From positions 43,272,332-43,336,331 of the forward strand of contig NC_091143.1 of the NCBI RefSeq assembly GCF_041381155.1: a stretch of 64,000 nucleotides of DNA. The letters run 5' to 3'. Made by a program: the position numbers and the translations under genes. Below the pieces are notes generated by a model that was not told the origin of the DNA, did no database searches, and was given only the letters and a program-made list of their open reading frames with translations. Position 1 is the stretch's first letter; each line of letters begins with the position of its first letter. Positions 9,426 through 64,000 of this stretch are shown here, in pieces. This DNA is from Argopecten irradians (Eukaryota; Mollusca; Bivalvia; Pectinida; Pectinidae).

Positions 9426-9429
9426 GCCC

Positions 9430-25688: not shown

Positions 25689-25714
25689 CCAGGTCACGAT
25701 TCCCTAGTATTTTT

Positions 25715-26745
25715 AGGTCATCTGACCCGTCCGATGTCCGGCGTGCGTAAACCTTTCATTCAAACGACTTCTTCTTAATAACTGGAAGGCCCAGGGTACT
25801 CATATTTGGCCTGTAGGTTGCTGGGATTGAGGGCTACCAAGTTTGTTCAAATAAATGACCTTGACCTTCATTCAAGGTCACGAGGGTCAAATAGGCTAAA
25901 ATCTTTAAACGACTTCTTCTCAAGAACCAGAAGGCCCAGGGTACTGATATTTGGCCTGTAGGTTGCTGATAAGGATGGCTACCAAGTTTGTTCAAATGAA
26001 TGACCTTGATCTTCATTGAAGGTCACAGGGGTCAAATAGGCTAAAATACTTTAAACAACTTCTTGTGAATAACTAAGAGGCCTAGAGACCTGATATTAGG
26101 CCTCTGGCATGCTGGGATGAAGAGCTACCAAGTTTGTTCAAATAAATGACCTTGACCTTCATTCAAGGTCACAAGGGTCAAATAGGCTAAAATCTTTAAA
26201 TGATTTCTTCTCAAGAACCAGAAGGCCCAGGGTACTGATATTTGGCCTGTAGGTTGCTGAAAAGGATGGCTACCAAGTTTGTTCAAATAAATGATCTTGA
26301 ACTTCATTCAAGGTCACGAGGGTCAAATAGGCTAAAATCTTTAAACGACTTCTTCTCAAGAACGAAAGGCCCAGGGTACTGATATTGGGCCCGTAGGATG
26401 CTGGGACGAAAGGCTACCAAGTTTGTTCAAATAAATGACCTTGATCGTCATTCAAGGTCACAGGGGTCAAATAGGCTATAACCATTTAAACAACATCTTG
26501 TGAATAATGAAGAGGTTTAGGGACCTGATATTGGGCCTGTGGCATGCTGGGATGAAGGGCTACCAAGTTTGTTCCAATGAATGACCTTGATCTTCATTAA
26601 AGGTCACGGGGGTCAAATAGGCTAAAATCTTTAAATGACTTCTTCTCAAGAACTAGAAGGCCAAGGGTACTGATATTGGACATGTAGCATGCTTGGATGG
26701 AGGGCTATCAAGTTTATTCAAATGAATGACCTTGAGGTTTTTTTT
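25715..26745 (+). mobile_element. Pearl-like element with FTZ-F1/ERR-like core, 3'-truncated
   Basis: The head AGGTCATCTGACCCG is the same terminus as the element at 29408. It is followed by a short CCG-rich stretch and about seven core units of roughly 147 bp. Each core has TGACCTTGA...TCAAGGTCA and ACCAAGTTTGTTCAAA. This core belongs to the 27160-28968 family, not to the 29408 family. It ends abruptly at a TTTTTTTT-GCGCGC junction. Confidence 0.8.
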
Positions 26746-26821
26746 GCGCGCACGTCGTAAACCTGTGCTGTTACTTTTATAAAAATTGAATTATATTATG
26801 CATGTGTTGATGTGCTTTTAC

Positions 26822-27076
26822 CTGATTTCAGCGTCATCATTTGGTTCTTTCATTAGCTTTGATAACTTTGGTGAAAGTCTACTTTTCAATTGACTGGTAG
26901 TAGCAGTGTTGTACAACTCGCGAGCTGATACTGGAAACTGATTTTTGTTATCAATTATTTCGAATATAATTTCATCCCAAGAACAAGGATGTATTTGATA
27001 GGCTCGAAGATTTTTTTTCAGAGAATTTCCGGTCTTCCAAAAGGTACATTTTTGACGATCGCTTGCTTAAAATCAC
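26822..27076 (-). pseudogene. Left-arm copy of an internal coding exon, frameshifted
   Basis: Bounded by TTGCAG|GTGATT and ATCAG|GTAAAAG on the minus strand. It matches the right-arm exon at 63346-63601 except for about seven changes, including one A fewer in an A-run. This shifts the frame after about 10 codons and brings an early stop. The right-arm copy is open throughout. Either this copy is dead or the A-run length is a sequencing error. Confidence 0.65.
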
Positions 27077-27159
27077 CTGCAAGCATAGACAAGATATACA
27101 TGTATATGAAAGAAGTTAGCACACATACATGTACATTAGTATATGTAGTATAATTTTTA

Positions 27160-28968
27160 ACTCACCTGCCCGAAGGGCAAGTAAGCTTATGCTATGGTGC
27201 AGCGTCCGTCGTCCGTCCGTCGTCCGGTCCCGTCCGGCGTCAACTTTTCCATTTAAACAACTTCTTCTCCAAAACTTGGACACCTAGAGTCCTGAAATTT
27301 GAGTTATAGCATGCTGGGATGAAGGGCTACCAAGTTTGTTCAAATGAATGACCTTGACCTTCATTCAAGGTCACAGGGGTCAAAAAGGCTAAAATCTTTA
27401 AACGACTTCTTCTTAATAACCAAGAGGTCTAGGGACCTGATATTGAGCCTGATGCATGGTGGGATCAAGGGCTACCAAGTTTGTTCAAATGAATGACCTT
27501 GACCTTCATTCAAGGTCACAGGGTCAAATAGGCTAAAATCTTTAAATGACTTCTTCTCAAGAATCAGAAGGCCAAGGGTACTGATATTGAGCATGTAGCA
27601 TGCTGAGATGAAGGGCTTCCAAGTTTGTTCAAATGAATGACCTTGACTTTCATTCAAGGTCACAGGGGTCAAATAGGCTAAAAATTTTAAATGACTTCTT
27701 TTTAATAACCAAGAGGCCTAGGAACCTGATATTGGGCCTGTGGCATGCTGGGATAGATGGCAACCAAGTTTGTTCAAATAAATGACCTTGACCTTCATTC
27801 AAGGTCACAGGGGTCAAAAAAGCTAAAATCTTTAAACGACTTCTTCTTAATAACCAGGAGGCCTAGGGACCTGATATGGGGCCTGTGGCATGCTGGGATC
27901 AAGGGCTACCAAGTTTGTTCAAATAAATGACCTTGACCTTCATTCAAGGTCACAGTGGTCAAAAAGGCTAAAATCTGTAAACGACTTCTTCTTAATAACC
28001 AAACACGTCTAGGGACCTGATATTGAGTCTGATGCATGGTGGGATCAAGGGCTACCAAGTTTGTTCAAATGAATGACCTTGACCTTCATTCAAGGTCACT
28101 AGAGTCAAATAGGCTAAAATCTTTAAACCACTTCTTTTTAATAACCAAGAGGCATAGGAACCTGATATTAGACCTGTGACATACTGGGATAGAGTGCTAC
28201 CAAGTTTGTTCAAATGAATGGACTTGACCTTCACTCAAGGTCACAGGGATCAAATAACCAAGAGGCCTAGAGACCCGATATTTGGCATGTAACATGCTGG
28301 GATGAAGGACTACCAAGCTTGTTCAAATGAATGACCTTGACTTTCATTCAAGGTCACAGGAGTCAAAAAGGCTAAAAAAATTCAACGACTTCTTAATACC
28401 CAAACAGTCTAGGGACCTGATATTGGGCCTATGACATGCAGGGATCAAGGCCTAGTGCTACCAAGTTTCTTCGAATGAATGACCTTACCTTCAATCATTC
28501 AAGGTCAAAGGGGTCAGATAGGCTAAAATCTTTAAACAACTTCTTCTTAATAACCAAGAGGGCTAGAGACTGATATTGGGCATGTGATATGTTGGGATGA
28601 AGCGCTACAAATTTTGTTCAAATGAATGACCTTGACTTTCATTCAAGGTCACAGGGGTCAAATAGGCTAAAATCTTTAAAAGACTTCTTAAAAACCAAAA
28701 GGCATAGGGACCTGATATTAGGCCTGTGGCATGCTGGGATGAAGGGCTACCAAGTTTGTTCAAAAGAATGATCTTGACCTTCATTCAAGGTCACAGTGGT
28801 CAAATAGGCTAAAATCTTTAAACGACTTTTTTTTGATAACCAAGAGGCAAAGAGGCCTCTAATGTGCTTAGGGATGATATAAATTCTTATTTACTCTATT
28901 TGTTAAGTATGAACTATGTATAATTACCAGATTGCAGGTGAGCGATTCGGGCCCATTGGGCCCTTGTT
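27160..28968 (+). mobile_element. Pearl-like element, complete, about 11 core units
   Basis: Head hairpin CTCACCTGCCCGAAGGGC, CCGT/CGTC microsatellite, then about 11 units of roughly 147 bp with ACCAAGTTTGTTCAAATGAA, TGACCTTGA...TCAAGGTCA and GACTTCTTCTTAATAACCAA. The tail is CAGGTGAGCGATTCGGGCCC and then the complement of GGGCCC before CTTGTTT. The head GCTCACCTG and tail CAGGTGAGC are complementary. Its partner in the other arm is 62146-63262, with about 6 units. Confidence 0.85.
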
Positions 28969-29274
28969 TGTATATGAATTTTTATTTGATTTCTCTCTTT
29001 CCTTTTGTTTAAACAGTCTATGTTCTCCACTTCATTAATTTGTTTATTATATCAATGTAGTAGTGATTTGTATACCCGTCACCTATCTGTATAATTCACG
29101 TAACGACACGTGTATCAGTACGTGACACAAACGTGTGTTGCACGAGCGATTAAGAAGTTTTATACGTTGATATAAACATCATTTGAACGTCACTGTTTGC
29201 CATTCTTTCGTGAGTATACATCTTTTCCTACTTAAAATGTAAGTGTATTATGTTTATACCACAAAACGAACAAG
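28969..29274. other. Arm spacer, no gene
   Basis: Present inverted at about 61853-62145. Contains ACGTGTATCAGTACGTGACA, a near-palindromic stretch. No open frame of note. Confidence 0.5.
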
Positions 29275-29407
29275 AGGCCCAAGAAGCGTTGACGGTCACC
29301 TGAGTGCTGCTAGAGAAAGAGCATTGCACAAACTTGATTCAAATCTGTAAAAAGTATTTACGAATCAGAATAAAATTTTAAAGTTGAACCTCCGTATTAG
29401 AATTTTT

Positions 29408-31860
29408 AGGTCATCTGACCCGAAGGGTCAGGATGACCTATAGTCGTCATGTTTCGTCCGTCGTTGTCCGCCGTCCGCCGTGCGCCGTGCGCCGTCCGCC
29501 GTGCGTTAACATTTCACATTTTGAACTTCTTCTCAAGTTCTACCGGTGCGATTTAGCTGAAACTTGCATGAAATGATCGTGACATGGTCCCGACAAAGTG
29601 TTGTTATTTTTCGGGTCGATCTGAAATCCAAGATGGCCACCACAGCCGCCATCTTGAAAACACATTTTGAACTTCTTCTCAAGTTCTACCGGTGCGATTT
29701 GGCTGAGACTTGCATGAAATGATCCTGACATGGTCCCGACAAAGTGTTCTTATTTTTCGGGTCGATCTGAAATCCAAGATGGCCCGCCACAGCCGCCATC
29801 TTGAAAACACATTTTGAACTTCTTCTCAAGTTCTACCAGTGCAATTTGGCTGAAACTTGCATGAAATGATCCTGACATGGTCCCGACAAAGTGTTGTTAT
29901 TTTTCGGGTCGATCTGAAATCCAAGATGGCCGCCACAGCCGCCATCTTGAAAACACATTTTGAACTTCTTCTCAAGTTCTACCAGTGCAATTTGGCTGAA
30001 ACTTGCATGAAATGATCCTGACATGGTCCCGACAAAGTGTTGTTATTTTTCGGGTCGATCCAAAATCCAAGATGGCCGCCACAGCCGCCATCTTGAAAAC
30101 ACATTTTGAACTTCTTCTCAAGTTCTACCAGTGCGATTTGGCTGAAACTTGCATTAAATGATCCTGACATGGTCCCGACAAAGTGTTGTTATTTTTCGGG
30201 TCGATCTGAAATCCAAGATGGCCGCCACAGCCGCCATCTTGAAAACACATTTTGAACTTCTTCTCAAGTTCTACCAGTGCGATTTGGCTGAAACTTGCAT
30301 GAAATGATCCTGACATGGTCCCGACAAAGTGTTGTTATTTTTTCGGGTCGATCCAAAATCCAACATGGCCGCCACAGCCGCCATCTTGAAAACACATTTT
30401 GAACTTCTTCTCAAGTTCTACCTGTGCGATTTGGCTGAAACTTGCATGAAATGATCCTGACATGGTCCCGACAAAGTGTTGTTATTTTTCGGGTCGATCT
30501 GAAATCCAAGATGGCCGCCACAGCCGCCATCTTGAAAACACATTTTGAACTTCTTCTCAAGTTCTACCTGTGCGATTTGGCTGAAACTTGCATGAAATGA
30601 TCCTGACATGGTCCCGACAAAGTGTTGTTATTTTTCGGGTCGATCTGAAATCCAAGATGGCCACCACACCTGCCATCTTGAAAACACATTTTGAACTTCT
30701 TCTCAAGTTCTATTAGAGCGATTTGGCTGAAACTTGCATGAAATGATCCTGACATGGTCCCGACAAAGTGTTGTTATTTTTCGGGTCGATCTGAAATCCA
30801 AGATGGCCGCCACAGCCGCCATCTTGAAAACACATTTTGAACTTCTTCTCAAGTTCTACCTGTGCGATTTGGCTGAAACTTGCATGAAATGATCCTGACA
30901 TGGTCCCGACAAAGTGTTGTTATTTTTCGGGTCGATCTGAAATCCAAGATGGCCACCACACCTGCCATCTTGAAAACACATTTTGAACTTCTTCTCAAGT
31001 TCTATTAGAGCGATTTGGCTGAAACTTGCATGAAATGATCCTGACATGGTCCCGACAAAGTGTTGTTATTTTTCGGGTCGATCTGAAATCCAAGATGGCC
31101 GCCACAGCCGCCATCTTGAAAACACATTTTGAACTTCTTCTCAAGTTCTACCTGTGCGATTTGGCTGAAACTTGCATGAAATGATCCTGACATGGTCCCG
31201 ACAAAGTGTTGTTATTTTTCGGGTCGATCTGAAATCCAAGATGGCCACCACACCTGCCATCTTGAAAACACATTTTGAACTTCTTCTCAAGTTCTATTAG
31301 AGCGATTTGGCTGAAACTTGCATGAAATGATCCTGACATGGTCCCGACAAAGTGTTGTTATTTTTCGGGTCTATCCAAAATCCAAGATGGCCGCCACAGC
31401 TTCCATCTTGAAAACACATTTTGAACTTCTTCTCAAGTTCTACCTGTGCGATTTGGCTGAAACTTGCATGAAATGATCCTGACATGGTCCCGACAAAGTG
31501 TTGTTATTTTTCGGGTCGATCTGAAATCCAAGATGGCCACCACACCTGCCATCTTGAAAACACATTTTGAACTTCTTCTCAAGTTCTACCTGTGCGATTG
31601 GCTGAAACTTGCATGAAATGATCCTGACATGGTCCTGACAAAGTGTTGTTTTTCGGGTCGATCTGAAATCCAAGATGGCCGCCAAAGCCGCCATCTTGAA
31701 AACACATTTTGAACTTCTTCTCAAGTTCTACCAGTGCGATTTGGCTGAAACTTGCATGAAATGATCCTGACATGGTCCTGACAAAGTGACCCCATATGTA
31801 ATTAATTTTACTATTGCCAAGGTAGTCAGATGACCGTTGTGGCCCTTTGGGCCTCTTGTT
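29408..31860 (+). mobile_element. Pearl-like element (2453 bp) with YY1-like 146-bp core, precisely bounded
   Basis: Head hairpin AGGTCATC...GATGACCT, then CCGT/CCGC-rich microsatellite, about 16 units of 146 bp (AACTTCTTCTCAAGTTCTAC ... CAAGATGGC...GCCATCTTG), tail GTCAGATGACC and hairpin GGCCCTTTGGGCC before TCTTGTT. The right arm keeps the empty site: AATTTTT joins directly to ATTTTTTG. Insertion therefore made no target duplication, at most a 2-bp ambiguity of T. Lack of duplication, a T-rich target and a terminal hairpin fit a Helitron/Helentron-type mechanism. Confidence 0.85.
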
Positions 31861-32242
31861 ATTTTTTGTTTTTCATTTTGATAGTTAGTGTATTATGTTA
31901 CCTAACCTTATGCTTAAAATTCCAATTTGCTTTGCCAACGTTAAACAACAAAACCAAACAAGAAGTCAGCGATTTTACAAATTTCACTTTTTAATCTATG
32001 AAGATTATTTGGTTCCATCAACACTGTGAATTCAGAAGAAGATTTTTGAAATTTTAGCCATTTTGGCCCCGCCCCTCTGGCCTCTGGGGGTCAGTCAGGA
32101 CCAATATGGATATGGTGTTAAAATGCTATCTCAGGCTAATAATTCTAACCCAGATTAGCTTATTTTCTATGAAAACTAAGCAAATAATGTTAATAAATGT
32201 GTTCTCTCTTATATAAACTATATTAAATTTGACCCCCTTCCC

Positions 32243-32772
32243 TTGTTTGTTTGTTTGTTTGATTTATTAACGTCCTATTAACAGCTATGGTCATGTAAGG
32301 ACGGCCTCCCATGTATGCGGTGTGTTGCGTGTATGTTGTGCAAGGTGAGTGTACTGGGAGACTGCGGTATGTTCGTGTTGTGTCTTCTTGTATAGTGGAA
32401 CTGTTGCCCTTTTTATAGTGCTATATCACTGAAGCATGCCGCCGAAGACACCAAGCAACACACCCCACCCGGTCACATTATACTGACAACGGGCGAACCA
32501 GTCGTCCCACTCCCTGTATGCTGAACGCTTAACAGGAGCAGAAACTACCACTCTTTTATAGACTTGGGTGTGTCTCGGCCAGGGGACAGATCCTATAGCC
32601 TTCCTCACAGGGGCGAACGCTCAACTCAAGGCCAAAAGTGAGGCGGTGCCAAGGGAGGCATTAGGAAAGATAAAGTCAGTTAGGAAGAAGAGAAAAGATA
32701 AGATCCTAAATTTAGTCGCCTTTTACGATCATGCAATAGGGGCAGCAGGTACAATTCTAACGCCCTACCTGC
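32243..32772 (-). mobile_element. SINE-like element, full length, absent from the other arm
   Basis: From TTGTTTGTTTGTTTGATTTA to CGCCCTACCTGC. The right arm has the empty site (CCCCCTTCCC joined to AGGGGAAAATC). The head end has no obvious duplication. A 77-codon open frame here is incidental. Confidence 0.85.
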
Positions 32773-33561
32773 AGGGAAAATCTGAGATCCCAGGGCTATG
32801 AAATTCACAATTTTTGTAATGGGCATTAAGACCTTCCAATTTATGAAGAGTACTTGGTTCCATCAAATCTGTGAATTCAGAAGAAGTTTTAGCCTATTTG
32901 ACCCCATTTGGACCCGCCCCTCTGGTCCCTGGGGGTCAGCCAGGACCAATATGGATTTGGTGTTAAAATGCTATTTCAGGCTAATAATTCCAACCCAGTT
33001 CGGCTAATATTCTATGAAAAATAAGCAAATAATGTTCATAAATGTGTTAAAAGTTTTGAAGTTTTAGCCTATTTGACTCCTTTTGGCCCTGCCCTTAACG
33101 TCCCTGGGGGTCGGCCAGTACCAATATGGATATGACAATAAAATGCTATCTTAGGCTAAAAATTCTAACCCAGTTTGATTAATTGCCTATGAAAATCAAG
33201 CAACTAGCATTCATTAATGTGTGTTTTCCTATATAAACTAAAGTGAACTTGACCCCCTCCCCAGGGGGAAAAATGAAACCCCAGGGTCATATAATTCACA
33301 ATTTTTGTAAAGGACCTGAAGACCTCTCCATCTATGAAGAGTATTTAATTCTAGCAGTTCCGGAAATTTCAGAAGAAGATTTTTGAAGTTTTAGCCAATT
33401 TGACTCCTTTTGGCCCCGCCCCTAAGGCCCATGGGAGTCAGTCATGGAAAATTTGTTAATAGGATTCAATGGCCATTTCATTGGGATAATTCTGACAACA
33501 TTTAACTAATTTTCTGTAATAAATGACCCTGGTGAGGGAGTCAAATTTACTAGTTATATAG

Positions 33562-33672
33562 TTATACAGAGGACTCCACATAATCGAATAACGGTTATTC
33601 GAATATTTCGGTTATATGCATAAAATTCTGCGGTCCCGATTTTTTCTTCTTTATCTTTGTTTTTTTCAACTG
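33562..33672 (+). mobile_element. Short insertion of about 110 bp found only in the left arm
   Basis: Contains CCACATAATCGAATAAC and the complement GTTATTCG, then ATGCATAAAATTCTGCGGTC. The right arm runs straight from ACTATAACTTATATAGG. It is probably a fragment of a DNA transposon end; the exact edges are uncertain. Confidence 0.5.
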
Positions 33673-34068
33673 TATAGGAAAAACACATTTATGAACATTA
33701 TTATATTCTAGTTTTAATAGGAAATGAGTCAAACTGGTTAGAATTATTAGCCAGCCTGAAATAGCATTTTAACACCATATCCATATTGGTCCTGGCTAAT
33801 CCCCCAGGGACCAGAGGGGCGGGGGTCAAAATGGCTAAAATTTCAAAAATCTGAAGCTGACTGACTTCTATGTTTGGTTTTGTTGTTTAACGTTGGCAAA
33901 GCAAATGGGAATTTTAGGCATAAGATTTGGTAACATAATACACTAACTATCACGAAGGTTCAACTTAAAAGTTTATTCTAATTCGTAAATACTTTTACAG
34001 ATTTTAACCAACTTTGCAATGCTCTTTCTGTAGCAGCACTCAGGTGACCGTCAAGGCTTCTTGGGCCT

Positions 34069-34569
34069 CTTATTTTCCTACCTTTTTGATTAGAGATGTG
34101 TCACCTCTTTGACGAATCATATGAAAATCTAAGATGTGTATTCCTACGTGTGATGTCATCATTATCTATATAGATGCCAGAGCTTCACAGATAATCTTCA
34201 ATTGATCGGCAAATTCATTATGTGCTAGCGCGCATAAATGATTATTGCGATCTCAACATTAATGGGGCCATTCCAATTCGTGGGCTAATCTCCTGTTACA
34301 TAACCACGTACCTTAGATCTGACTTGTACCTTTTTATAGAGAGTTACAATGTCCCACGATTTGGCTGTCATTTATAGCACCCAACTTGATATTTGATTTT
34401 GGCTTGGTTAGTTATATATATTAGAAGTGGACAAGTAAATGTTAGATATTAAAATGTATCCTGCTGTGAGATCATATCGTGGTACACACGCGATAATGCG
34501 AATAAGATTTGTTTCATGAATTAGCTTTTTGCTTTGCTTTTCAAGCAAATGGATCACAGAAGAGGCGAG
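34069..34569. other. Arm segment in a low-quality patch
   Basis: Matches 59700-60100 inverted. From about 34190 it gains extra single bases relative to the partner (for example ACCACGTACCTTAGATCTGA against ACCACGACTTAGACTGAC). This pattern suggests uncorrected reads. Confidence 0.6.
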
Positions 34570-34950
34570 TGTCTTATTCTTACTAAAATGTGTCAGTACC
34601 ACCCACAATAATTTAGATATTTAACAGACAACTTTAATTGTTTGCCCTAGCCTTTTCCATAAATCACACAAATACATAAATGTCCAATGGCGATGTCCAG
34701 AACTGAAACATACATAAAACAGGACTAATTGGTTACAATTGAAAACCAACTGTCAGGGAAGGAGATGTGTTTAGTAACAAATGCATACGACACAAGGCCG
34801 CATTTGACATGATTGTAGTTTCGACCATACGTAAGACGATCAGACAAAGCTCTATCAAAAATTTCTAGAACTAACATTTACCCATGCTTTTTGTCCAATA
34901 GAAACCCGGGTGCACAACACTTCTTCATCCTCGATAACCCGTGTGACAGA
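34570..34950 (+). pseudogene. Left-arm copy of the exon at 59314-59667, not readable
   Basis: Sequence such as TTACAATTGAAAACCAACTG and AGGGAAGGAGATGTGTTTAG aligns to the right-arm exon but with many insertions and substitutions, leaving no long frame. Flanking arm DNA outside the patch is only a few per cent different. The damage is therefore more likely poor sequence than decay. Confidence 0.5.
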
Positions 34951-37900
34951 GACTAGAGACCGATTTCGCAGAACGATATTAAATGATGTGTTAAATGGAG
35001 TTTTCAAGTCTGGTCACCTGTCACTAATTTTGAAGAATGGCATCTCGCATACCTGTGAATAAAAAGAAATAAAGATCTACCATCTTGCTAAACTTTTATG
35101 TGGGGGGTGCCATCTTATGTTGAATTCCGCACCAAAAATTGACCAAAATATTCATGAAATTCTAATATTGATTACCTCCCCCTGTCAGACACACACTTGA
35201 CAGAATTTTAAAATTTCTTTATATATTTTACATCTACATGTATTGCCCAACCCACACATTAAACATTTGAAACTGATGCACCCTGGATACCCAATCAGCA
35301 GGGCTCCGAAACATTCACTCTCTATGAAATCTTGTGCCCAAAAGGGGATTTCCAGGAATCTATTTTTGGTTTGATTCTGCGGTCCCTATAGCATTTTACA
35401 TATTTTTCAAATTTACCATTTTTGGAAAGCTACATGTCCATAAGGTCTGATTCCAAAATGGGAGTTTGCTCGCTGCATGGGTTGGTCTGGTACTGCAAGC
35501 TGTGTACTCGTATCGACGATGAAGATTCCTGTAAGAAAAATTATGAGAATTGAAACAGTTTTGAAATAAAAGTTTAAATATTTCAATGAAATTTGAACCT
35601 AGACTTTTGACTTTTACTTATAACTATAGTATAGTTAGTGTACTACAGGGAAATATGACCAATTGAATTAAACTTGGAGGTCAGGGGGAGATAACTCATA
35701 TTCTTTACCCCCACCCCCCATTTTTGGAATTTCTAGCAAAAAATATCCAGAACTGAACAATTAAGCAAATCAAAGTTCCAGAACTGGCTCAATACTATAG
35801 ATATATAACTTAGTAAACAATAGAATATCATAAAGAAATGATTATAACATATTATGTCATAATATATCTGATATAACACAGAGAAATTACGGTGCAGCTA
35901 ATGAAATATGGATACAAAATAGCCCCAAAAATTTCAAATTTGCCCTGATTTTCTGAATCAGATGATTCTAAAATTACAAATGTATACCAATTGATGTAAA
36001 AAAGGGAATTATTAACCTCTGAAGGATTCCAAGGACAGATAAAAATCAAATCTAGAGCAACATTTGAACCCGAAAAAACTGGACAGAACTAAAGAATCGT
36101 GGCTATTAGAAAGAAAATGATTTTGAAAAATAGAATTAAAAACTTATCCTTCACTCGCATATTGATGTATACTAGTCAGTTACAAGATCTGGAAATGAAA
36201 GAATTACACAAGTCACCTCTAAATTTGCACCATCTCACTGCTAAAAAAACCCGTTTACCAGAGACCTACAAATGTACAGACAATGGAAGGGAGATAACTC
36301 GAATTTCACTCGACTATCCATCTCGAAGAAATTAATAACACTGATAATTGAACCAAAGAGGTATATGAGAGAAATGTATAGAGAAAAAAAACAAATTATA
36401 CTCACAATTAAATACTCAGGTCAATTATGGAAAGGTAACTCTGTCTAGTATTTTCATGAAATGAGTTAACTCCCCTTGGCGCTGTCTTCATGTCAGGAAA
36501 AAGCTGTTAAACTGGTCGGCCCAAAAGGTACCATGGTCAAAGCTCGGCTGAAACAGAAGAAATGTATAAATTAATAAATAAATGACTAAAATGAAAGAGT
36601 TAAAGTAGCTGATTAATGAACACAAAAACAGAAAGTGTTTTATATAGATCAATTAGGGTTCATGGCCATTTAAGGATGTGTCAATACTTGGAGGAACCCA
36701 GAGTATCAAAATAAAAACCACCGTCCTACAGCCTGAATCTATTACCTATTCCTGACCAGTCTTAAACATTTAATTTTGAAAAAGAAGACTATACTGTTTA
36801 TTTTACAGAACCAAACAACACTATATCCATTTGATGAATTTATATATAAAATATTTGACTTACATATACAGATAAATAGAATAGTAATTATGATAAATAG
36901 ATAAATACAGGGAAAGAGATTATTAGGCTTGAATAACTCCTAATCACAGAGTATCACGCGAATTCAGAGAAGTTTACTAAATATCATTGAAATACACATA
37001 ATATTCTAAATATTCTAAGTCACCAGACTTCTTACATGTACCCCCCCCGGGCCAGGACCCTAGCCCCTGTGTCATACTGCCCCAAGCCCCTGTGTCATAA
37101 TCGTGACAAAAACATCTTCTGTATAATCACTTTCTAAGATATTGGTTCATGTGCTAAGCTATATTAACAACATATGTGTAATGTGATTTTTTTCAACAAA
37201 ATCCACCAATTTACAGTGTCGTTATCAAGACAGAAAGGCCTCCGTACTAAAAATAGCTACCAAATATTTATAAAATACAAGCAAAATACCTTCAACACTC
37301 GATTTCCAGCCAAATACATGCAGATTGGGTTCAGTCAAATGGTGTCCAGGGACGCTGAATGACGGAAACGTCATATCCGGTTGTCATCCTATAGAGACCG
37401 CAGAACCAAATGATTTCGCTATATACGATATATTAACGTTTGCCGCTGTCAAGGTTAAATGGAGTTTTCAAGTCTGGTCACCTGTCACTAATTTTGAAGA
37501 ATGGCATCTCGCATACCTGTGAATAAAAAGAAATAAAGATCTACCATCTTGCTAAACTTTTATGTGGGGGGTGCCATCTTATGTTGAATTCCGCACCAAA
37601 AATTGACCAAAATATTCATGAAATTCTAATATTGATTACCTCCCCCTGTCAGACACACACTTGACAGAATTTTAAAATTTCTTTATATATTTTACATCTA
37701 CATGTATTGCCCAACCCACACATTAAACATTTGAAACTGATGCACCCTGGATACCCAATCAGCAGGCTCCGAAACATTCACCTCTCTATGAAATCTTGTG
37801 CCCAAAAGGGGGATTTCCAGGAATCTATTTTTGGTTTGATTCTGCGGTCCCTATAGCATTTTACATATTTTTCAAATTTACCATTTTTGGAAAGCTACAT

Positions 37901-40900: not shown

Positions 40901-42440
40901 AAGGGTTAATAGTATTAACCTCTGAAGGATTCCAAGGACAGATAAAATCAAATCTAGAGCAACATTTGAAAAACCCGAAAAACTGGACAGAACTAAAGAA
41001 TCGTGGCTATTAGAAAGAAAATGATTTTGAAAAATAGAATTAAAACTTATCCTGTCACTCACAATTGATTGATGTATACTAGTCAGTTACAAGATCTGGA
41101 AAATGAAAGAATTACACAATTCACCTCTAAATTTGCACCATCTCACTGCTAAAAAAAACCCGTTTACCAGAGACCTACAAATGTACAGACAATGGAAGGG
41201 AGATAACTCGAATTTCACTCGACTATCCATCTCGAAGAAATTAATAACACTGATAATTGAACCAAAGAGGTATATGAGAGAAATATATAGAGAAAAAAAA
41301 CCCAAATAAAAATCATACTAACACTCATTAAATAATCAGGTCAGTTATGGAAAGGTAACTCCTGTCTAGTATTGTCATGAAATGAGTTTAACTCCCTTTG
41401 GCGCTGTCTTCATGTCAGGAAATAAGCTGTTAAACTGGGTCGGGCCAAAAAGGTACCATGGTCAAAGCTCGGCTGATTGTGACCTCTGCACTCGGCTGAA
41501 ACAGATGAAACGTATAATTAAGGAATTAACTGACTAAAAATTGAACGAGTTTTAAAAGTAGCTGATTAATGAACTCAAAAACAGAAATGTGTTTTTTATA
41601 GATCGATTCATTAGGGTTCATGGCCATTTAAGGATGGTGTGTCAAATACTTGGAGGAAAACCCAGAGTATCAAAATAAAAACCACCGTCCTACAGCCTGA
41701 ATCTATTACCTATTCCTGACCAGTCTTAAACATTTAATTTTGAAAAAGAAGACTATACTGTTTATTTTACAGAACCAAACAACACTATATCCATTTGATG
41801 AAGATTTATATATAAAATATTTGACTTACATATCACAGATAAATAGATTAGTAATTTATGATAATATGATAAATACAGGGACTAGTGATTTATGAGATTA
41901 TTAGGCTTGAATAACTCCTAATCACAGAGTATCTCACGCGAACTTCAGAGAAGTTTACTAAATATCATTGAAATACACATAATATTCTAAATATTCTAAG
42001 TAACCAGACTTCTTACATGTCCCAACCCCCCCCCCCACCCACCCCCCCCCCCCCCCCGGGCCACCGGACCCTAGCCCCTGTGTCATACTGCCCCAAGCCC
42101 CTGTGTCATAATCGTGACAAAAAACATCTTCTGTATAATCAACTTTCTAAGATATTGGTTCATGTGCTAAGCTATATTAACAACATATGTGTAATGTGAT
42201 TTTTTTTTTTTCAACAAAATCCACCAATTTACCAGTGTCGTTATACAATCAGAAAGGCTCTCCGTACTAAAAAATATACCAAATATTTATAAAATACAAG
42301 CAAAATACCTTCAACACTCGATTTCCAGCCAAATACATGCAGATTGGGCCTCCCGTACTTGGTAAAAATAGCTACCAATAATTTTATAAAATACAAGCAA
42401 AATACCTTCAACACTCGATTTCCGTCAAATATCATGCGGA
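34951..42440 (+). repeat. Left tandem array: three copies of a 2.47-kb unit
   Basis: Unit boundaries, set at the TCATCC|TATAG junction, are about 34951-37389, 37390-39857 and 39858-42440. The first two are almost identical. The third carries many small insertions and a partial duplication of about 100 bp near its end. Each unit has a C-tract (8, 18 and an interrupted run) before GGGCCAGGACCCTAGCCCC. Open frames of 60-95 codons recur because the units are alike. The intergenic look and lack of a shared reading frame argue against a plain protein gene, but see the splice-like sites noted in the findings. Confidence 0.85.
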
Positions 42441-46185: not shown

Positions 46186-46299
46186 AATTTGAGCGTCATT
46201 TTGGTGACCTGGAAACCAACTTCTTACAAAACCGAAGAATACAATTATTATCTATGATAACTATCATGTTGATACAATGACAGTGCCTGTGACCACTAT

Positions 46300-47345: not shown

Positions 47346-47372
47346 AATTTTTGGTTCATGTAAAATGCTATA

Positions 47373-47711: not shown

Positions 47712-47744
<33 letters not shown>

Positions 47745-53700: not shown

Positions 53701-56700
53701 TTGGAATCCTTCAGAGGTTAATAATTCCCTTTTTTACATCAATTGGTATACATTTGTAATTTTAGAATCATCTGATTCAGAAAATCAGGGCAAATTTGAA
53801 ATTTTTGGGGCTATTTTGTATCCATATTTTATTAGCTGCACCGTAATTTCTCTGTGTTATATCAGATATATTATGACATAATATGTTATAATCATTTCTT
53901 TATGATATTCTATTGTTTACTAAGTTATATATCTATAGTATTGAGCCAGTTCTGGAACTTTGATTTGCTTAATTGTTCAGTTCTGGATATTTTTTGCTAG
54001 AAATTCCAAAAATGGGGGGTGGGGGTAAAGAATATGAGTTATCTCCCCCTGACCTCCAAGTTTAATTCAATTGGTCATATTTCCCTGTAGTACACTAACT
54101 ATACTATAGTTATAAGTAAAAGTCAAAAGTCTAGGTTCAAATTTCATTGAAATATTTAAATTTTTATTTCAAAACTGTTTCAATTCTCATAATTTTTCTT
54201 ACAGGAATCTTCATTGTCGATACGAGTACACAGCTTGCAGTACCAGACCAACCCATGCAGCGAGCAAACTCCCATTTTGGAATCAGACCTTATGGACATG
54301 TAGCTTTCCAAAAATGGTAAATTTGAAAAATATGTAAAATGCTATAGGGACCGCAGAATCAAACCAAAAATAGATTCCTGGAAATCCCCTTTTGGGCACA
54401 AGATTTCATAGAGAGGTGAATGTTTCGGAGCCTGCTGATTGGGTATCCAGGGTGCATCAGTTTCAAATGTTTAATGTGTGGGTTGGGCAATACATGTAGA
54501 TGTAAAATATATAAAGAAATTTTAAAATTCTGTCAAGTGTGTGTCTGACAGGGGGAGGTAATCAATATTAGAATTTCATGAATATTTTGGTCAATTTTTG
54601 GTGCGGAATTCAACATAAGATGGCACCCCCCACATAAAAGTTTAGCAAGATGGTAGATCTTTATTTCTTTTTATTCACAGGTATGCGAGATGCCATTCTT
54701 CAAAATTAGTGACAGGTGACCAGACTTGAAAACTCCATTTAACCTTGACAGCGGCAAACGTTAATATATCGTATATAGCGAAATCATTTGGTTCTGCGGT
54801 CTCTATAGGATGACAACCGGATATGACGTTTCCGTCATTCAGCGTCCCTGGACACCATTTGACTGAACCCAAATTGCATGTATTTGACTGGAAATCGAGT
54901 GTTGAAGGTATTTTGCTTGTATTTTATAAATATTTGGTAGCTATTTTTAGTACGGAGGCCTTTCTGTCTTGATAACGACACTGTAAATTGGTGGATTTTG
55001 TTGAAAAAAATCACATTACACATATGTTGTTAATATAGCTTAGCACATGAACCAATATCTTAGAAAGTGATTATACAGAAGATGTTTTTGTCACGATTAT
55101 GACACAGGGGCTTGGGGCAGTATGACACAGGGGCTAGGGTCCTGGCGGGGGGGGGGGGGGTACATGTAAGAAGTCTGGTGACTTAGAATATTTAGAATAT
55201 GATGTGTATTTCAATGATATTTAGTAAACTTCTCTGAATTCGCGTGATACTCTGTGATTAGGAGTTATTCAAGCCTAATAATCTCTTTCCCTGTATTTAT
55301 CTATTTATCATCAATCACTATTCTATTTATCTGTATATGTAAGTCAAATATTTTATATATAAATTCATCAAATGGATATAGTGTTGTTTGGTTCTGTAAA
55401 ATAAACAGTATAGTCTTCTTTTTCAAAATTAAATGTTTAAGACTGGTCAGGAATAGGTAATAGATTCAGGCTGTAGGACGGTGGTTTTTATTTTGATACT
55501 CTGGGTTCCTCCAAGTATTGACACATCCTTAAATGGCCATGAACCCTAATCGATCTATATAAAACACTTTCTGTTTTTGTGTTCATTAATCAGCTACTTT
55601 AACTCTTTCATTTTAGTCATTTATTTATTAATTTATACATTTCTTCTGTTTCAGCCGAGCTTTGACCATGGTACCTTTTGGGCCGACCAGTTTAACAGCT
55701 TTTTCCTGACATGAAGACAGCGCCAAGGGGAGTTAACTCATTTCATGAAAATACTAGACAGAGTTACCTTTCCATAATTGACCTGAGTATTTAATTGTGA
55801 GTATAATTTGTTTTTTTTTCTCTATACATTTCTCTCATATACCTCTTTGGTTCAATTATCAGTGTTATTAATTTCTTCGAGATGGATAGTCGAGTGAAAT
55901 TCGAGTTATCTCCCTTCCATTGTCTGTACATTTGTAGGTCTCTGGTAAACGGGTTTTTTTTAGCAGTGAGATGGTGCAAATTTAGAGGTGAATTGTGTAA
56001 TTCTTTCACTTCCAGATCTTGTAACTGACTAGTATACATCAATATGTGAGTGAAGGATAAGTTTAATTCTATTTTTCAAAACCATTTTCTTTCTAATAGC
56101 CACGATTCTTTAGTTCTGTCCAGTTTTTCGGGTTCAAATGTTGCTCTAGATTTGATTTTATCTGTCCTTGGAATCCTTCAGAGGTTAATAATTCCCTTTT
56201 TTACATCAATTGGTATACATTTGTAATTTTAGAATCATCTGATTCAGAAAATCAGGGCAAATTTGAAAAATTTTTGGGGCTATTTTGTATCCATATTTTA
56301 TTAGCTGCACCGTAATTTCTCTGTGTTATATCAGATATATTATGACATAATATGTTATAATCATTTCTTTATGATATTCTATTGTTTACTAAGTTATATA
56401 TCTATAGTATTGAGCCAGTTCTGGAACTTTGATTTGCTTAATTGTTCAGTTCTGGATATTTTTTGCTAGAAATTCCAAAAATGGGGGGTGGGGGGTAAAG
56501 AATATGAGTTATCTCCCCCTGACCTCCAAGTTTAATTCAATTGGTCATATTTCCCTGTAGTACACTAAACTATACTATAGTTATAAGTAAAAGTCAAAAG
56601 TCTAGGTTCAAAATTTCATTGAAATATTTAAACTTTTATTTCAAAACTGTTTCAATTCTCATAATAATTTTTCTTACAGGAATCTTCATTCGTCGATACG

Positions 56701-59335
56701 AGTACACAGCTTGCAGTACCAGACCAACCCATGCAGCGAGCAAACTCCCATTTTGGAATCAGACCTTGAAATGGACATAGTGACAGTGACCAGACTTGAA
56801 AACTCCAAAAACCTTGACAGCGGTAAATTTAAAAATATATGTAAAATTTGGTAAAATGCTATAGGATGACAACCGGATATGACGTTTCCGTCATTCAGCG
56901 TCCCTGGACACCATTTGACTGAACCCAATCTGCATGTATTTGACTGGAAATCGAGTGTTGAAGGTATTTTGCTTGTATTTTATAAATATTTGGTAGCTAT
57001 TTTTAGTACGGAGGCCTTTCTGTCTTGATAACGACACTGTAAATTGGTGGATTTTGTTGAAAAAAATCACATTACACATATGTTGTTAATATAGCTTAGC
57101 ACATGAACCAATATCTTAGAAAGTGATTATACAGAAGATGTTTTTGTCACGATTATGACACAGGGGCTTGGGGCAGTATGACACAGGGGCTAGGGTCCTG
57201 GCCCGGGGGGGGGGGGGGGGTACATGTAAGAAGTCTGGTGACTTAGAATATTTAGAATATGATGTGTATTTCAATGATATTTAGTAAACTTCTCTGAATT
57301 CGCGTGATACTCTGTGATTAGGAGTTATTCAAGCCTAATAATCTCTTTCCCTGTATTTATCTATTTATCATAATCACTATTCTATTTATCTGTATATGTA
57401 AGTCAAATATTTTATATATAAATTCATCAAATGGATATAGTGTTGTTTGGTTCTGTAAAATAAACAGTATAGTCTTCTTTTTCAAAATTAAATGTTTAAG
57501 ACTGGTCAGGAATAGGTAATAGATTCAGGCTGTAGGACGGTGGTTTTTATTTTGATACTCTGGGTTCCTCCAAGTATTGACACATCCTTAAATGGCCATG
57601 AACCCTAACCGATCTATATAAAACACTTTCTGTTTTTGTGTTCATTAATCAGCTACTTTAACTCTTTCATTTTAGTCATTTATTTATTAATTTATACATT
57701 TCTTCTGTTTCAGCCGAGCTTTGACCATGGTACCTTTTGGGCCGACCAGTTTAACAGCTTTTTCCTGACATGAAGACAGCGCCAAGGGGAGTTAACTCAT
57801 TTCATGAAAATACTAGACAGAGTTACCTTTCCATAATTGACCTGAGTATTTAATTGTGAGTATAATTTTTTTTTTTTCTCTATACATTTCTCTCATATAC
57901 CTCTTTGGTTCAATTATCAGTGTTATTAATTTCTTCGAGATGGATAGTCGAGTGAAATTCGAGTTATCTCCCTTCCATTGTCTGTACATTTGTAGGTCTC
58001 TGGTAAACGGGTTTTTTTAGCAGTGAGATGGTGCAAATTTAGAGGTGAATTGTGTAATTCTTTCACTTCCAGATCTTGTAACTGACTAGTATACATCAAT
58101 ATGTGAGTGAAGGATAAGTTTAATTCTATTTTTCAAAATCATTTTCTTTCTAATAGCCACGATTCTTTAGTTCTGTCCAGTTTTTCGGGTTCAAATGTTG
58201 CTCTAGATTTGATTTTATCTGTCCTTGGAATCCTTCAGAGGTTAATAATTCCCTTTTTTACATCAATTGGTATACATTTGTAATTTTAGAATCATCTGAT
58301 TCAGAAAATCAGGGCAAATTTGAAATTTTTGGGGCTATTTTGTATCCATATTTTATTAGCTGCACCGTAATTTCTCTGTGTTATATCAGATATATTATGA
58401 CATAATATGTTATAATCATTTCTTTATGATATTCTATTGTTTACTAAGTTATATATATATCTATAGTATTGAGCCAGTTCTGGAACTTTGATTTGCTTAA
58501 TTGTTCAGTTCTGGATATTTTTTGCTAGAAATTCCAAAAATGGGGGGGTGGGGGTAAAGAATATGAGTTATCTCCCCCTGACCTCCAAGTTTAATTCAAT
58601 TGGTCATATTTCCCTGTAGTACACTAACTATACTATAGTTATAAGTAAAAGTCAAAAGTCTAGGTTCAAATTTCATTGAAATATTTAAATTTTTATTTCA
58701 AAACTGTTTCAATTCTCATAATTTTTCTTACAGGAATCTTCATCGTCGATACGAGTACACAGCTTGCAGTACCAGACCAACCCATGCAGCGAGCAAACTC
58801 CCATTTTGGAATCAGACCTTATGGACATGTAGCTTTCCAAAAATGGTAAATTTGAAAAATATGTAAAATGCTATAGGGACCGCAGAATCAAACCAAAAAT
58901 AGATTCCTGGAAATCCCCTTTTGGGCACAAGATTTCATAGAGAGGTGAATGTTTCGGAGCCTGCTGATTGGGTATCCAGGGTGCATCAGTTTCAAATGTT
59001 TAATGTGTGGGTTGGGCAATACATGTAGATGTAAAATATATAAAGAAATTTTAAAATTCTGTCAAGTGTGTGTCTGACAGGGGGAGGTAATCAATATTAG
59101 AATTTCATGAATATTTTGGTCAATTTTTGGTGCGGAATTCAACATAAGATGGCACCCCCCCACATAAAAGTTTAGCAAGATGGTAGATCTTTATTTCTTT
59201 TTATTCACAGGTATGCGAGATGCCATTCTTCAAAATTAGTGACAGGTGACCAGACTTGAAAACTCCATTTAACCTTGACAGCGGCAAACGTTAATATATC
59301 GTATATAGCGAAATCATTTGGTTCTGCGGTCTCTG
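47373..59335 (-). repeat. Right tandem array: five copies of the 2.47-kb unit
   Basis: Boundaries at CTATAG|GATGACAACC are 47373, 49861, 52345, 54808 and 56864, giving units of 2488, 2484, 2463, 2056 and about 2472 bp. Unit 4 lacks about 410 bp near 56770-56860. G-tracts of 30, 24, 13, 14 and 16 bases sit at 47714, 50202, 52681, 55147 and 57205. The units are nearly identical to each other and to the left array. Confidence 0.88.
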
Positions 59336-59667
59336 TATACACGGTTACGAGGTGAAAGTGTGTGCTCCAGGGTTTCTCTTGGCAAAGCATGTGAAATGTT
59401 AGTCAAAATATTTGTTAAAGTTTCTGACGTTTCCCCGGTCGACTCAAACAATTCAAATGGATGGTCAGCATATATAGTAAACACATCTCTTCCCTGCCAG
59501 TGGTTTTCAATGTTACCAAATAGCCTATTTCTTATGTTTCTGATAAGATCCGTGGGAATTTGGTTGATAAGGAAAAGGAAGGCAACCAAAAGTTGTCTAA
59601 AATCTACATATGGTGGTGGTACAGACACAATAGTAAGAAAAGACCCTGCCCTTCTTGGATCCATTTG
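59314..59667 (-). CDS. Coding exon of an unrecognised gene, ending in the tandem array
   Basis: The exon opens after a strong acceptor (GCTTTTGCTTTGTTTCAG, exon base 59667) in phase 0 with QMDPRRAGSFLTIVSVPPPY. It continues through VDFRQLLVAFLFLINQIPTD, NRLFGNIENHWQGRDVFTIY and FESTGETSETLTNILTNISH to LSPRNRVYRDRRTK and a stop at 59314. About 117 codons with convincing protein composition. Its last 20 or so bases are array sequence: other units read CTATAGAGACC where this reads TATACAGAGACC. The gene therefore either ends in the repeat or was cut by it. Upstream exons would lie at higher coordinates and were not found. I do not recognise the family; it has one hydrophobic stretch (LLVAFLFLI) but no clear domain. 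The left-arm copy is unreadable. Confidence 0.6.
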   Translation of the reverse strand, partial: QMDPRRAGSFLTIVSVPPPYVDFRQLLVAFLFLINQIPTDLIRNIRNRLFGNIENHWQGRDVFTIYADHPFELFESTGETSETLTNILTNISHALPRETLEHTLSPRNRVYRDRRTK

Positions 59668-59699
59668 CTGAAACAAAGCAAAAGCATTTATGAACAATC

Positions 59700-60102
59700 T
59701 TATTCATTATCAGTGTCCACGATCTGATCTCCAGCAGGATACATTTTAATATCTACATTTACTTGTCACTTCTAATATATAAACTAACCAAGCCAAATTC
59801 AAATATATGTGGGTATAAATGACAGCCAAATCTTGGACATTATAACTCTATAAAAAAGACAAGTCAGTCTAAGTCGTGGTTATGTAACAGAATTAGCCTC
59901 ATTGAATGGTCCCATTAATGTTGAGATCGCAATAATCATTATGCGCGCTAGCACATTATGAATTTGCCCACATGAAGATTATCTGTGAAGCTCTGGCATC
60001 TATATAGATAATGATGACATCACACGTAGGAATATACATCTTAGATTTTCATATGATTCGTCAAAGAGGTGACACATCTCTAATCAAAAAGGTAGGAAAA
60101 TA
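59700..60102. other. Arm segment upstream of the exon, no gene
   Basis: Clean version of 34069-34569. AT-rich, and probably intron or 5' flank of the exon at 59314-59667. Confidence 0.45.
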
Positions 60103-61850
60103 AGAGGCCCAAGAAGCCTTGACGGTCACCTGAGTGCTGCTACAGAAAGAGCATTGCAAAGTTGGTTAAAATCTGTAAAAAGTAATTACGAATTAGAATC
60201 AACTTTAAAGTTGAACCTTCGTATTATAATTTTTTATTTTTTGTTTTTCATTTTGATAGTTAGTGTATTATGTTACCAAACCTTATGCCTAAAATTCCCA
60301 TTTGCTTTGCCAACGTTAAACAACAAAACCAAACTAGAAGTCAGTCAGCTTCAGATTTTTGAAATTTTAGCCATTTTGACCCCGCCCCTCTGGTCCCTGG
60401 GGGTTAGCCAGGACCAATATGGATATGGTGTTAAAATGCTATTTCAGGCTGGCTAATAATTCTAACCCAGTTTGACTCATTTTCTATTAAAACTAGAATA
60501 TAAGCAAATAATGTTCATAAATGTGTTTTTCCTATATAAGTTATAGTAAATTTGGGTCATTTATCATAGAAAATTAGTTAAATGTTGTCAGAATTATCCA
60601 TATGAACTGGCCATTGAATCCTATTAACAAATTTTCCATGACTGACTCCCATGGGCCTTAGGGGCGGGGCCAAAAGGAGTCAAATTGGCCAAAACTTCAA
60701 AAATCTTCTTCTGAAATTCTGGAACTGCTAGAATTAAATACTCTTCATAGATGGAGAGGTCTTCAGGTCCTTTACAAAAATTGTGAATTATATGACCCTG
60801 GGGTTTCATGTTTCCCCCTGGGGAGGGGGTCACGTTTACTATAGTTTACATGTATATAGGAAAACACACATTAATGAATGCTAGTTGCTTGATTCTCATA
60901 GGAAATTAATCAAACTGGGTTAGAATTTTTAGCCTAAGATAGCATTTTATTGTCATATCCATATTGGTCCTGGCCGACCCCCAGGGACGTTAAGGGCGGG
61001 GCCAAAAGGAGTCAAATAGGCTAAAACTTCAAAACTTATAACACATTTATGAACATTATTTGCTTAGTTTTCATAGGAAATTAGCCGAACTGGGTTAGAA
61101 TTATTAGCCTGAAATAGCATTTTAACACCAAATCCATATTGGTCCTGGCTGACCCCCAGGGACCAGAGGGGCGGGTCCAAATGGGGTTCAAATAGGCTAA
61201 AACTTCAAAAATCTTCTTCTGAATTCACAGATTTGATGGAACCAAGTACTCTTCATAAATTGGAAGGTCTTAAGGCCCATTACAAAAATTGTGAATTTCA
61301 TGGCCTTGGGATCTCAGATTTTCCCCTGGGAAGGGGGTCAAATTTACTATAGTTTATATAGGAAAAACACATTTATAAACATTATTTGCTTAGTTTTCAT
61401 AAGAAATAGGCTAATCTGGGTTAGAATTATTAGCCTGAGATAGCATTTTAACACCATATCCATATTGGTCCTGACTGACCCCCAGAGGCCAGAGGGGCGG
61501 GGCCAAAATGGCTAAAATTTCAAAAATCTTCTTCTGAATTCACAGTGTTGATGGAACCAAATAATCTTCATAGATTAAAAAGTGAAATTTGTAAAATCGC
61601 TGACTTCTTGTTTGGTTTTGTTGTTTAACGTTGGCAAAGCAAATTGGAATTTTAAGCATAAGGTTAGGTAACATAATACACTAACTATCAAAATGAAAAA
61701 CAAAAAATAAAAATTCTAATACGAAGGTTCAACTTTAAAATTTATTCTGATTCGTAAATACTTTTTACAGATTTGAACCAACTTTGCAATGCTCTTTCTC
61801 TAGCAGCACTCAGGTGACCGTCAACGCTTCTTGGGCCTCTTGTTCGTTTT
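60103..61850. mobile_element. Double-tailed inverted-repeat element, uninterrupted copy
   Basis: Ends AAGAGGCCCAAGAAGCC...GACGGTCACCTGAGTGCT on the left and the complement ending GGGCCTCTTGT on the right. The terminal inverted repeats are about 250 bp and include TTTTTTGTTTTTCATTTTGA and AACGTTAAACAACAAAACCA. The interior tandem repeats carry GTTAGAATTATTAGCCTGA and CTGGCTGACCCCCAGGGACC. There is no open reading frame, so it is non-autonomous. Confidence 0.85.
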
Positions 61851-62145
61851 GTGGTATAAACATAATACACTTACATTTTAAGTAGGAAAAGATGTATACT
61901 CACGAAAGAATGGCAAACAGTGACGTTCAAATGATGTTTATATCAACGTATAAAACTTCTTAATCGCTCGTGCAACACACGTCTGTGTCACGTACTGATA
62001 CACGTGTCGTTACGTGAATTATACTGATAGGTGACGGGTATACAAATCACTACTACATTAATATAATATAGCATGCTTAATGAAGTGGAGAACAAAGACT
62101 GTTTAAACAAAAGGAAAGAGAGAAATCAAATTAAAATTCATATAC

Positions 62146-63262
62146 AAACAAGGGCCCAATGGGCCCGAATCGCTCACCTGCAATCTGGTAATTATACATG
62201 GTTCATACTTAACAAATAGAATAAATAAGAATTTTTATCATCCCTAAGCACATTAGAGGCCTCTTTGCCTCTTGGTTATTAAAAAAAGTCGTTTAAAGAT
62301 TTTAGCCTATTTGACCCTGTGACCTTGAATGAAGGTCAAGGTCATTCATTTGAACAAACTTGGTAGCACTCTATCCCAGTATGTCACAGGTCTAATATCA
62401 GGTTCCTATGCCTCTTAGTTATTAGAAGAAGTCGTTTACAGATTTTAGCCTTTTTGACCACTGTGACCTTGAATGACGATCAAGGTCATTTATTTGAACA
62501 AACTTGGTAGCCCTTGATCCCAGCATGCCACAGGCCCAATATCAGGTCCCTAGGCCTCTTGGTTATTAAGAAGAAGTCGTTTAAAGATTTTAGCTTTTTT
62601 GACCCCTGTGACCTTGAATGAAGGTCAAGGTCATTTATTTGAACAAACTTGGTTGCCATCTATCCGAGCATGCCACAGGCCCAATATCAGGTTCCTAGGC
62701 CTCTTAGTTATTAAAAAGAAGTCATTTAAAATTTTTAACCTATTCGACCCCTGTGACCTTGAATGAAGGTCAAGGTCATTCATTTGAACAAACTTGGTAG
62801 CCCTTCATCTCAGCAAGCTACATGCTCAATATCAGTACCTTGGCCTTCTGGTTCTTGAGGAGAAGTCATTTAAAGATTTTAGCCTTTTTGACCCTTGTGA
62901 CCTTGAATGAAGGTCAAGGTCATTCATTTGAACAAACTTGGTAGACCTTCATCCCAGCATGCCACAGGCCCAATATCAGGTCCCTAGACCTCTTGGTGAT
63001 TAAGAAGAAGTCGTTTAAAGATTTTAGCCTTTTTGACCCCTGTGACCTTGAATGAAGGTCAAGGTTATTCATTTGAACAAACTTGGTAGCCTTCATCCCA
63101 GCATGCTATAATTCAAATTTCAGGACTCTAGGTCTCCAAGTTTTGGAGAAGAAATTGTTTAAATGGAAAAGTTGACGCCGGAGGGCCAGACAGACGGACG
63201 ACGGACGGACGACGGACGATGCACCATAGCATAAGCTCACTTGCCCTTCGGGCAGGTGAGCT
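62146..63262 (-). mobile_element. Pearl-like element, complete, about 6 core units
   Basis: Inverted partner of 27160-28968: tail AAACAAGGGCCC...GGGCCC, six cores with TGACCTTGAATGAAGGTCA, a GACGGACGACGGACGGACGA microsatellite, and head hairpin GCCCTTCGGGCAGGTGAGCT. It is shorter only because it has fewer core units. Confidence 0.85.
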
Positions 63263-63345
63263 AAGAATTATACTACATATACTAATTGTACATGTATGTG
63301 TGCTAACTTCTTTCATATACATGTATATCTTGTCTATGCTTGCAG

Positions 63346-63601
63346 GTGATTTTAAGCAAGCGAACGTCAAAAAATGTACCTTTTGGAAGACCGGAAATTC
63401 TCCGAAAAAAAATCTTCGAGCCTATCAAATACATCCTTGTTCTTGGGATGAAATTATATTCGAAATAATTGATAACAAAAACCAGTTTTCAGTATCAGCT
63501 CGCGAGTTGTACAACACTGCTTCTACCAGTCAATTGAAAAGTAGACTTTCCACAAAGTTATCAAAGCTAATGAAAGAACCAAATGATGACGCTGAAATCA
63601 G
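63346..63601 (+). CDS. Internal coding exon of an unrecognised gene (right-arm copy, open)
   Basis: Exon between TATGCTTGCAG and ATCAG|GTAAAAGC, 256 bp, entered and left out of phase with codon boundaries. The product reads DFKQANVKKCTFWKTGNSPK, KNLRAYQIHPCSWDEIIFEI and ARELYNTASTSQLKSRLSTK, then LSKLMKEPNDDAEI. It is charged, probably alpha-helical at the end, with no known motif. The exon lies between a pearl-like element and an A-tailed junction. The left-arm copy (26822-27076) is one base shorter. Because only the sequence between the splice sites is well kept, I treat it as a real exon of an unidentified gene. Confidence 0.55.
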
Positions 63602-63654
63602 GTAAAAGCACATCAACACATGCATAATATAATTCAATTTTAATAAAAGTAACA

Positions 63655-64000
63655 GCACAGGTTTACGACGCGCGCAAAAAAAAAAAACCCCCAAGGTCAT
63701 TCATTCATTTTTGAATAAACTTTGATAGCCCTCCATCCAAGCATGCTACATGTCCAATTCCAGTACCCCCCCCCCCATTGGGGCATTCTAGTTCACTTGG
63801 AGAGGAAGAAGTCATTTAAAAGATTTTAGCCTATTTGGACCCCCTTGACCTTTAATGGAAGATCAAGGTCATTCATTGGGAACACAAACTTGGTTTGCAC
63901 TTTCATCCCAGCCATTGCCAGGCAGGCCAGGTCGCTATTGACTTGTGGTTTTTTAAATGAAATTTGATATCAGGTCGCTATTGCCTTTTGGTTTTTTAAG
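63655..64000 (-). mobile_element. Start of a further core array, cut by the window edge
   Basis: After CACAGGTTTACGACGCGCGC and an A-run the sequence is the core family of 25715-26745 in reverse (GGTCATTCATTC, AACTTGGT, CATCCCAGC). It has many extra bases, so this end is low quality. Confidence 0.65.

Follow-up and report, generated by a model that had tools for sequence, protein, structure and literature searches.

The terminal part of scaffold C10 of the Argopecten irradians assembly is laid out as two long arms in opposite orientation, which raises the question of whether it is a natural giant palindrome or a product of assembly. We addressed this in a 64,000-nucleotide stretch (the window; G000:C10:43272332-43336331) of an assembly of 845.8 Mb in 1508 contigs. 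Taken at face value, this scaffold end would imply a fragile giant palindrome and doubled genes. With a probability of roughly 73%, however, we regard it as an assembly artefact, produced when two copies of the same locus were linked head to head where the scaffold ends. The joined copies are most likely two haplotypes, two near-identical paralogues being less likely, and the back-to-back arrangement is probably not a real giant DNA palindrome.

Comparison of the window with itself confirmed the giant inverted repeat with arms of about 16 kb that had been noted in a preliminary description, the left arm (26534-42348) mirroring the right one (47330-63928). The reported order of parts, repeated in reverse, was likewise recovered as a series of collinear mirrored blocks. 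These inverted blocks paired 26534-28157 with 63928-62263, 28277-29408 with 62833-61708, 31859-32242 with 61710-61328, 32774-33529 with 61325-60554, 33673-33952 with 60536-60254, 33952-37490 with 60222-56778, and the array block 34990-42348 with sequence within 59334-47330. The bit scores of the listed pairs ranged from 459 to 10166, far beyond chance. The outer clean part of the left arm (26534-34190, + strand) contained 145-bp-repeat elements, a transposon side piece that mirrors 63220-63660, and two insertions, and the outer clean part of the right arm spanned 60223-63660 (+ strand). Both insertions were found in the left arm only, namely, a 146-bp array of ~2.45 kb with TTA at both edges (~29409-31858) and a piece of ~0.53 kb (~32243-32773), and the right arm was uninterrupted at both places. 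The clean left array (34990-40722, + strand) held ~2.3 units of ~2.47 kb and was followed by a noisy partial one, versus ~4.8 units of ~2.48 kb in the right array (47330-59334, − strand); thus, the two insertions and the difference in array size had been described correctly.

The distance between the arms was then determined by global alignment. In the outer clean blocks, substitutions amounted to 1.8-3.1%, with 1.83% for 31859-32242, 2.49% for 26800-27240, 2.56% for 28860-29408, and 3.05% for 32774-33529, each against the right arm, and the left and right arrays differed by 0.3-0.5% (0.32-0.49% in two stretches). The exon divergence of about 3% given earlier agreed with 63220-63660 (2.5% substitutions) and did not hold for the pair 59338-60010 and ~34200-34985, which showed 7.5% substitutions and 109 extra letters in the left copy versus 2 in the right. 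Among the matches listed, two outer pieces, 63225-63670 and 61843-62258, were 97% alike between the arms, and four relatives reached 88-91% over most of their length; the short dispersed tails of the two queries matched many places at 90-98%. For both pieces the arms were each other's closest match among those listed, at a distance that appears allele-like. For the piece labelled exon A (59338-60230), the left arm reached 85% and four relatives 87-88% among the matches listed, and the value between the arms is this low because the left patch is noisy.

The two "exons" of the preliminary description, 45856-46251 and 59314-59703, proved instead to be parts of one PIF/Harbinger-type transposase frame, since sequences matching both form a single open frame of 346 codons on C6 (L003). 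The 45856-46251 piece matched PF13359 DDE_Tnp_4 with an E value of 6.8e-10 and 39.2 bits, above the curated cut-off of 24.8, and neither the 59314-59703 piece nor the 63.4-63.6 kb piece had a Pfam match above the curated cut-off. The clean transposase 3′ part with its flank occupies 45160-46310 (− strand), and the clean right copy of the 5′ piece (exon A) with its flank occupies 59338-60222 (− strand). In relatives on C5, C6, C8, and C15, the DDE part, exon A, and the outer pieces lay on one strand in an unchanged order within a few kilobases, and a shorter relative of exon A at 86% was found on C7. In the window, the middle of the frame is replaced by a dispersed repeat, X (46303-47339, + strand), and by the array (47330-59334). 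The window pieces belong to one DDE_Tnp_4 transposase frame, as in PIF/Harbinger DNA transposons, to which we assign them by transposase domain; in the window, this frame is split by X and the array. Another transposase-X-array order, with one partial array unit, lies at C10:27514690-27522292 (L002, L030), and 45160-46300 differed from this copy at 27.516 Mb by 0.79% substitutions.

In the left arm, too, exon A is interrupted by the array, and at the same point (34990), which indicates that the arms descend from one already broken copy. Both arms have in common this array-broken transposase, the 145-bp-repeat elements, and, in mirrored position, an X-type repeat, and these shared features identify them as copies of one locus. 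The proposal that the arms have separate histories is sound for the substitutions and the two left-only insertions.

Both X and the array unit are also found elsewhere in the genome. The first part of X (46303-46498) was found in at least 34 places at 98%, and the 2.47-kb unit occurred as single elements on C7, C8, C9, C11, C13, and C433 and in arrays on C133, C180, and C1140. The ranges of several outside copies of this unit imply direct repeats of ~463 bp at both ends. An LTR-like reading based on these repeats was considered and dropped, because the unit termini look inverted (AGRGACCGCAGAA), and the unit was left unclassified.

Three patches with an excess of extra letters were detected, at 34.2-34.99 kb and 40.76-42.35 kb on the left and at the right tip (63661-63928). 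Left exon A (34191-34989, + strand; start placed by eye from the alignment) is an unpolished-looking transposase 5′ piece. Relative to the right arm, left 34000-34989, of which the first ~190 bases are clean, had 72 extra-letter events of at most 20 letters each (112 letters in all) plus one of 41 letters, against 2 events (2 letters) on the right. The insertion-rich last left array unit (40763-42348, + strand) had 46 extra events comprising 87 letters, and one further event of 23 letters, whereas the right arm had 7 (8 letters). Under a different scoring and with a different unit as partner, it showed 126 extra letters, 1 missing letter, and 65 mismatches in 1460. The stretches between its extra letters matched without error, which fits partial polishing. 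At the noisy tip (63661-64000, + strand), which mirrors the right part of a dispersed 145-bp-repeat element at 25727-26735, the excess lay in the right arm, with 18 extra events (41 letters) in 63661-63928 versus 1 (2 letters) in the left.

To which arm the extra letters belong was examined by comparison with outside copies. Left exon A had 77 extra events against 8 with both outside copies used (L003 and L005), and right exon A had 3 against 1 with the same two. The last left unit was clearly one-sided against three of five outside units, with 46 to 49 events against 5 to 9 for L016, L017, and L018, and the right unit had 5 against 0 to 5 with these three. The last left unit was not one-sided with L022 (48 against 38) and L030 (46 against 40); however, the clean right unit was also short of letters against L022 (8 against 33) and L030 (6 against 45), indicating that these two outside copies are themselves longer. 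Six comparisons of clean sequence gave few events (7 versus 4 twice, 2 versus 10, 2 versus 0, 2 versus 2, and 0 versus 2). Most outside copies thus assign the extra letters of both left patches to the left arm. Raw PacBio reads typically show surplus inserted letters, and judged by their letters the left patches look like unpolished long-read sequence.

The centre (42349-47329), previously taken for a plain spacer of about 5 kb, was found to be composed of a degraded mirrored X-type copy, an unmatched stretch, the transposase 3′ part, and X. Directly after the last left unit, 42350-42440 is by eye a second copy of the unit end that precedes it. The X-type copy (42349-43700, − strand) aligned mirrored to 47523-46392, and four pieces in 42600-43700 gave mirrored z values of 20.0, 31.9, 17.3, and 6.2 against 60 shuffles. 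Eight pieces from 43600 to 45159 gave only −0.2 to 2.7, and the longer pieces 43600-45159, 43600-44400, and 44400-45159 gave 3.2, 0.0, and 0.6, respectively. A probabilistic model whose parameters were taken from the aligned part gave z values of 2.0-4.1 against shuffles beyond 43.56 kb. Genomic controls, 60 for each piece, reached the mirrored score in 2 cases for 43700-44200, in none for 44200-44700, and in 30 for 44700-45150, and 44200-44700 read forward also scored fairly high (z of 1.4-1.8 versus 2.4-3.0 mirrored). In a rotation test, 43700-44420 exceeded all 87 rotations, whereas the score of 44420-45140 was reached or exceeded by 44 of 88. Thus, the mirrored signal beyond 43.7 kb is weak and ends by ~44.4 kb. 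The remaining stretch, 43701-45159, had no listed genome match elsewhere, with weak mirrored signal to 44420 and none after. The composition of 43.7-45.1 kb, by dinucleotides and a fourth-order model, did not mark it as random letters, and 43.7-45.16 kb could be real unique DNA. The idea that 43.6-45.4 kb folds back on itself as an independent hairpin was rejected: it scored 365.6, whereas 60 shuffles averaged 359.5 and reached up to 392.0.

Clean sequence did not run through the centre. The left side was insertion-rich at 34.2-34.99 and 40.76-42.35 kb and degraded at 42.35-43.7 kb, the mirrored similarity fell off towards the centre, and clean sequence was back by 45160. A poor consensus, taken alone, is also compatible with a real centre. 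The argument from noise is least secure for the X-type copy at 42.66-43.56 kb; this copy had 39 to 44 extra events against 28 to 34 with four outside X copies, and 4 of 12 outside loci scored 401-426, above the 385.5 of the right-arm X, the other 8 scoring lower. This copy may be natural and old, or it may have been badly read. On the clean right side, a short inverted repeat was seen at 45492-45612, which L002 matches in the inverted sense.

The surroundings of the repeat were also examined. The preliminary description had the repeat extending off the right edge; within this assembly it does not, as the last window base (43,336,331) is the end of scaffold C10, whose length is 43,336,331 bases, and the right arm stops because the scaffold stops. 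The window contains no N, and a 28-N gap at C10:43270794-43270821, 1.5 kb to its left, was the sole gap in the 50 kb checked leftward, so that the terminal gap-free piece of C10 amounts to 65.5 kb. Nowhere in the window did TTAGGG occur twice or more in succession, and (TTAGGG)5 gave 1053 forward and 369 reverse overlapping matches elsewhere in the genome. One TTAGGG array, at least G000:C2:1512495-1512740, lies 1.5 Mb inside scaffold C2 and is either interstitial or a sign of wrong scaffold order. Across the hits, sixteen large scaffolds (C1-C16) were represented, a number that would suit a scallop. Rfam yielded no match in the window at gathering scores and none up to an E value of 1 in 47330-50200, and ARAGORN with the bacterial code found none.

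The head-to-head joining of two haplotypes, which had been put forward earlier as an alternative, is favored by the scaffold end, the insertion-rich left patches, the noisy right tip, and the allele-like differences. The following course of events would account for them. Well-supported left sequence would end near 34.2 kb, and from there to ~45.1 kb the scaffold would rest on one or few raw long reads, where the repeated nature of the array between the patches presumably allowed it to be polished. At ~45.15 kb, a further contig representing this locus would then have been attached in reverse. Such a join explains together the scaffold-end position, the allele-like differences, the left-only insertions, the array counts, the poor centre, and the noisy tip. 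As in false haplotypic duplications at contig or scaffold ends, the window has, at a scaffold end, two allele-like copies of one locus that meet within repeats and sequence of poor quality; unlike in these, the copies lie head to head and not side by side. PMC7090048 describes scallop drafts for which Platanus, GapCloser, PBJelly (to fill gaps with PacBio reads), and Pilon were used, and by analogy a pipeline of this type could leave raw-read fills in an assembly such as this one. If this interpretation holds, the right arm is best disregarded as another version of the locus, and it would be wrong to take the noisy left-arm patches for decayed genes.

Large genomic palindromes are inverted duplications with near-identical arms, and the inverted arms of ~16 kb with a short centre resemble them. 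A real palindrome would have arisen by inverted duplication of a locus in which the transposase was already broken and the array already present, followed by 2-3% divergence, array expansion, and two insertions in the left copy. The window would then hold a young duplication of a transposon-loaded block beside a small secreted Gly/Tyr-rich gene family, with arrays of the 2.5-kb element flanking the centre. Many blocks of the arms are indeed collinear and mostly differ little, no gap separates the two arms, and the scaffold stops before the right arm has come to its outer end. Unlike in known palindromes, however, they are 1.8-3.1% apart in clean outer blocks and the left side of the centre is degraded; moreover, sequence quality is poor in the centre and in left exon A, similarity on the left side fades as the centre is approached, and the tip of the right arm, where the scaffold stops, is noisy. 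We consider this origin, in whole and in its steps, unlikely. It keeps some weight because inverted duplicates can themselves degrade long-read quality: according to PMC7229812, nanopore reads drop in quality past the junction of real inverted duplicates. The drop described there consists of miscalled and missed bases, whereas the window gains letters. A further point against the join is that, where two real copies are nearly identical, a polisher can correct just one of them.

Slightly less probable again is a fold-back (hairpin) chimeric read from one molecule that was incorporated at the end of the scaffold, in which case the right arm would be the same allele reversed. Noise near the turning point and the lack of a clear unique centre agree with such a read, but the clean outer blocks of the arms are 1.8-3.1% apart in substitutions, and the arms also differ in two insertions and in the number of array units. 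Such differences would not arise from a single molecule that was read twice, and a fold-back read therefore needs later polishing from the other haplotype. It is very improbable that the right arm is a misplaced near-identical paralogue from elsewhere on C10, such as the 27.5 Mb cluster. This cluster holds the closely similar transposase-X-array copy at 27.516 Mb with its one partial unit, as well as outside matches of two exon-like pieces of the left flank; its copy, however, comes without exon A or outer-arm sequence among the matches listed.

Beyond the arms, the unplaced contig C1395 (1-6763) was collinear with the left flank at 18862-25000, at 82-86% identity and with ~10% more letters, and this collinearity indicates that a second version of the neighbourhood is present in the assembly. 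C1395 is probably a second version of the left flank, which may be noisy or may be naturally different. It was absent among the matches listed for 25001-25726 and 25001-27300, where repeats dominate. The flank also contains a small two-part gene on the − strand (19327-19557 and ~19990-20068), with a signal-peptide-like start and a Gly/Tyr-rich piece, whose product (19327-20068) we take to resemble secreted shell or byssus proteins. Apart from hits in the window and on C1395, the exon-like pieces 19306-19413 and 20001-20107 had matches just at C10:27.513-27.550 Mb (5 among the matches listed), where two of the piece pairs are in opposite orientation.
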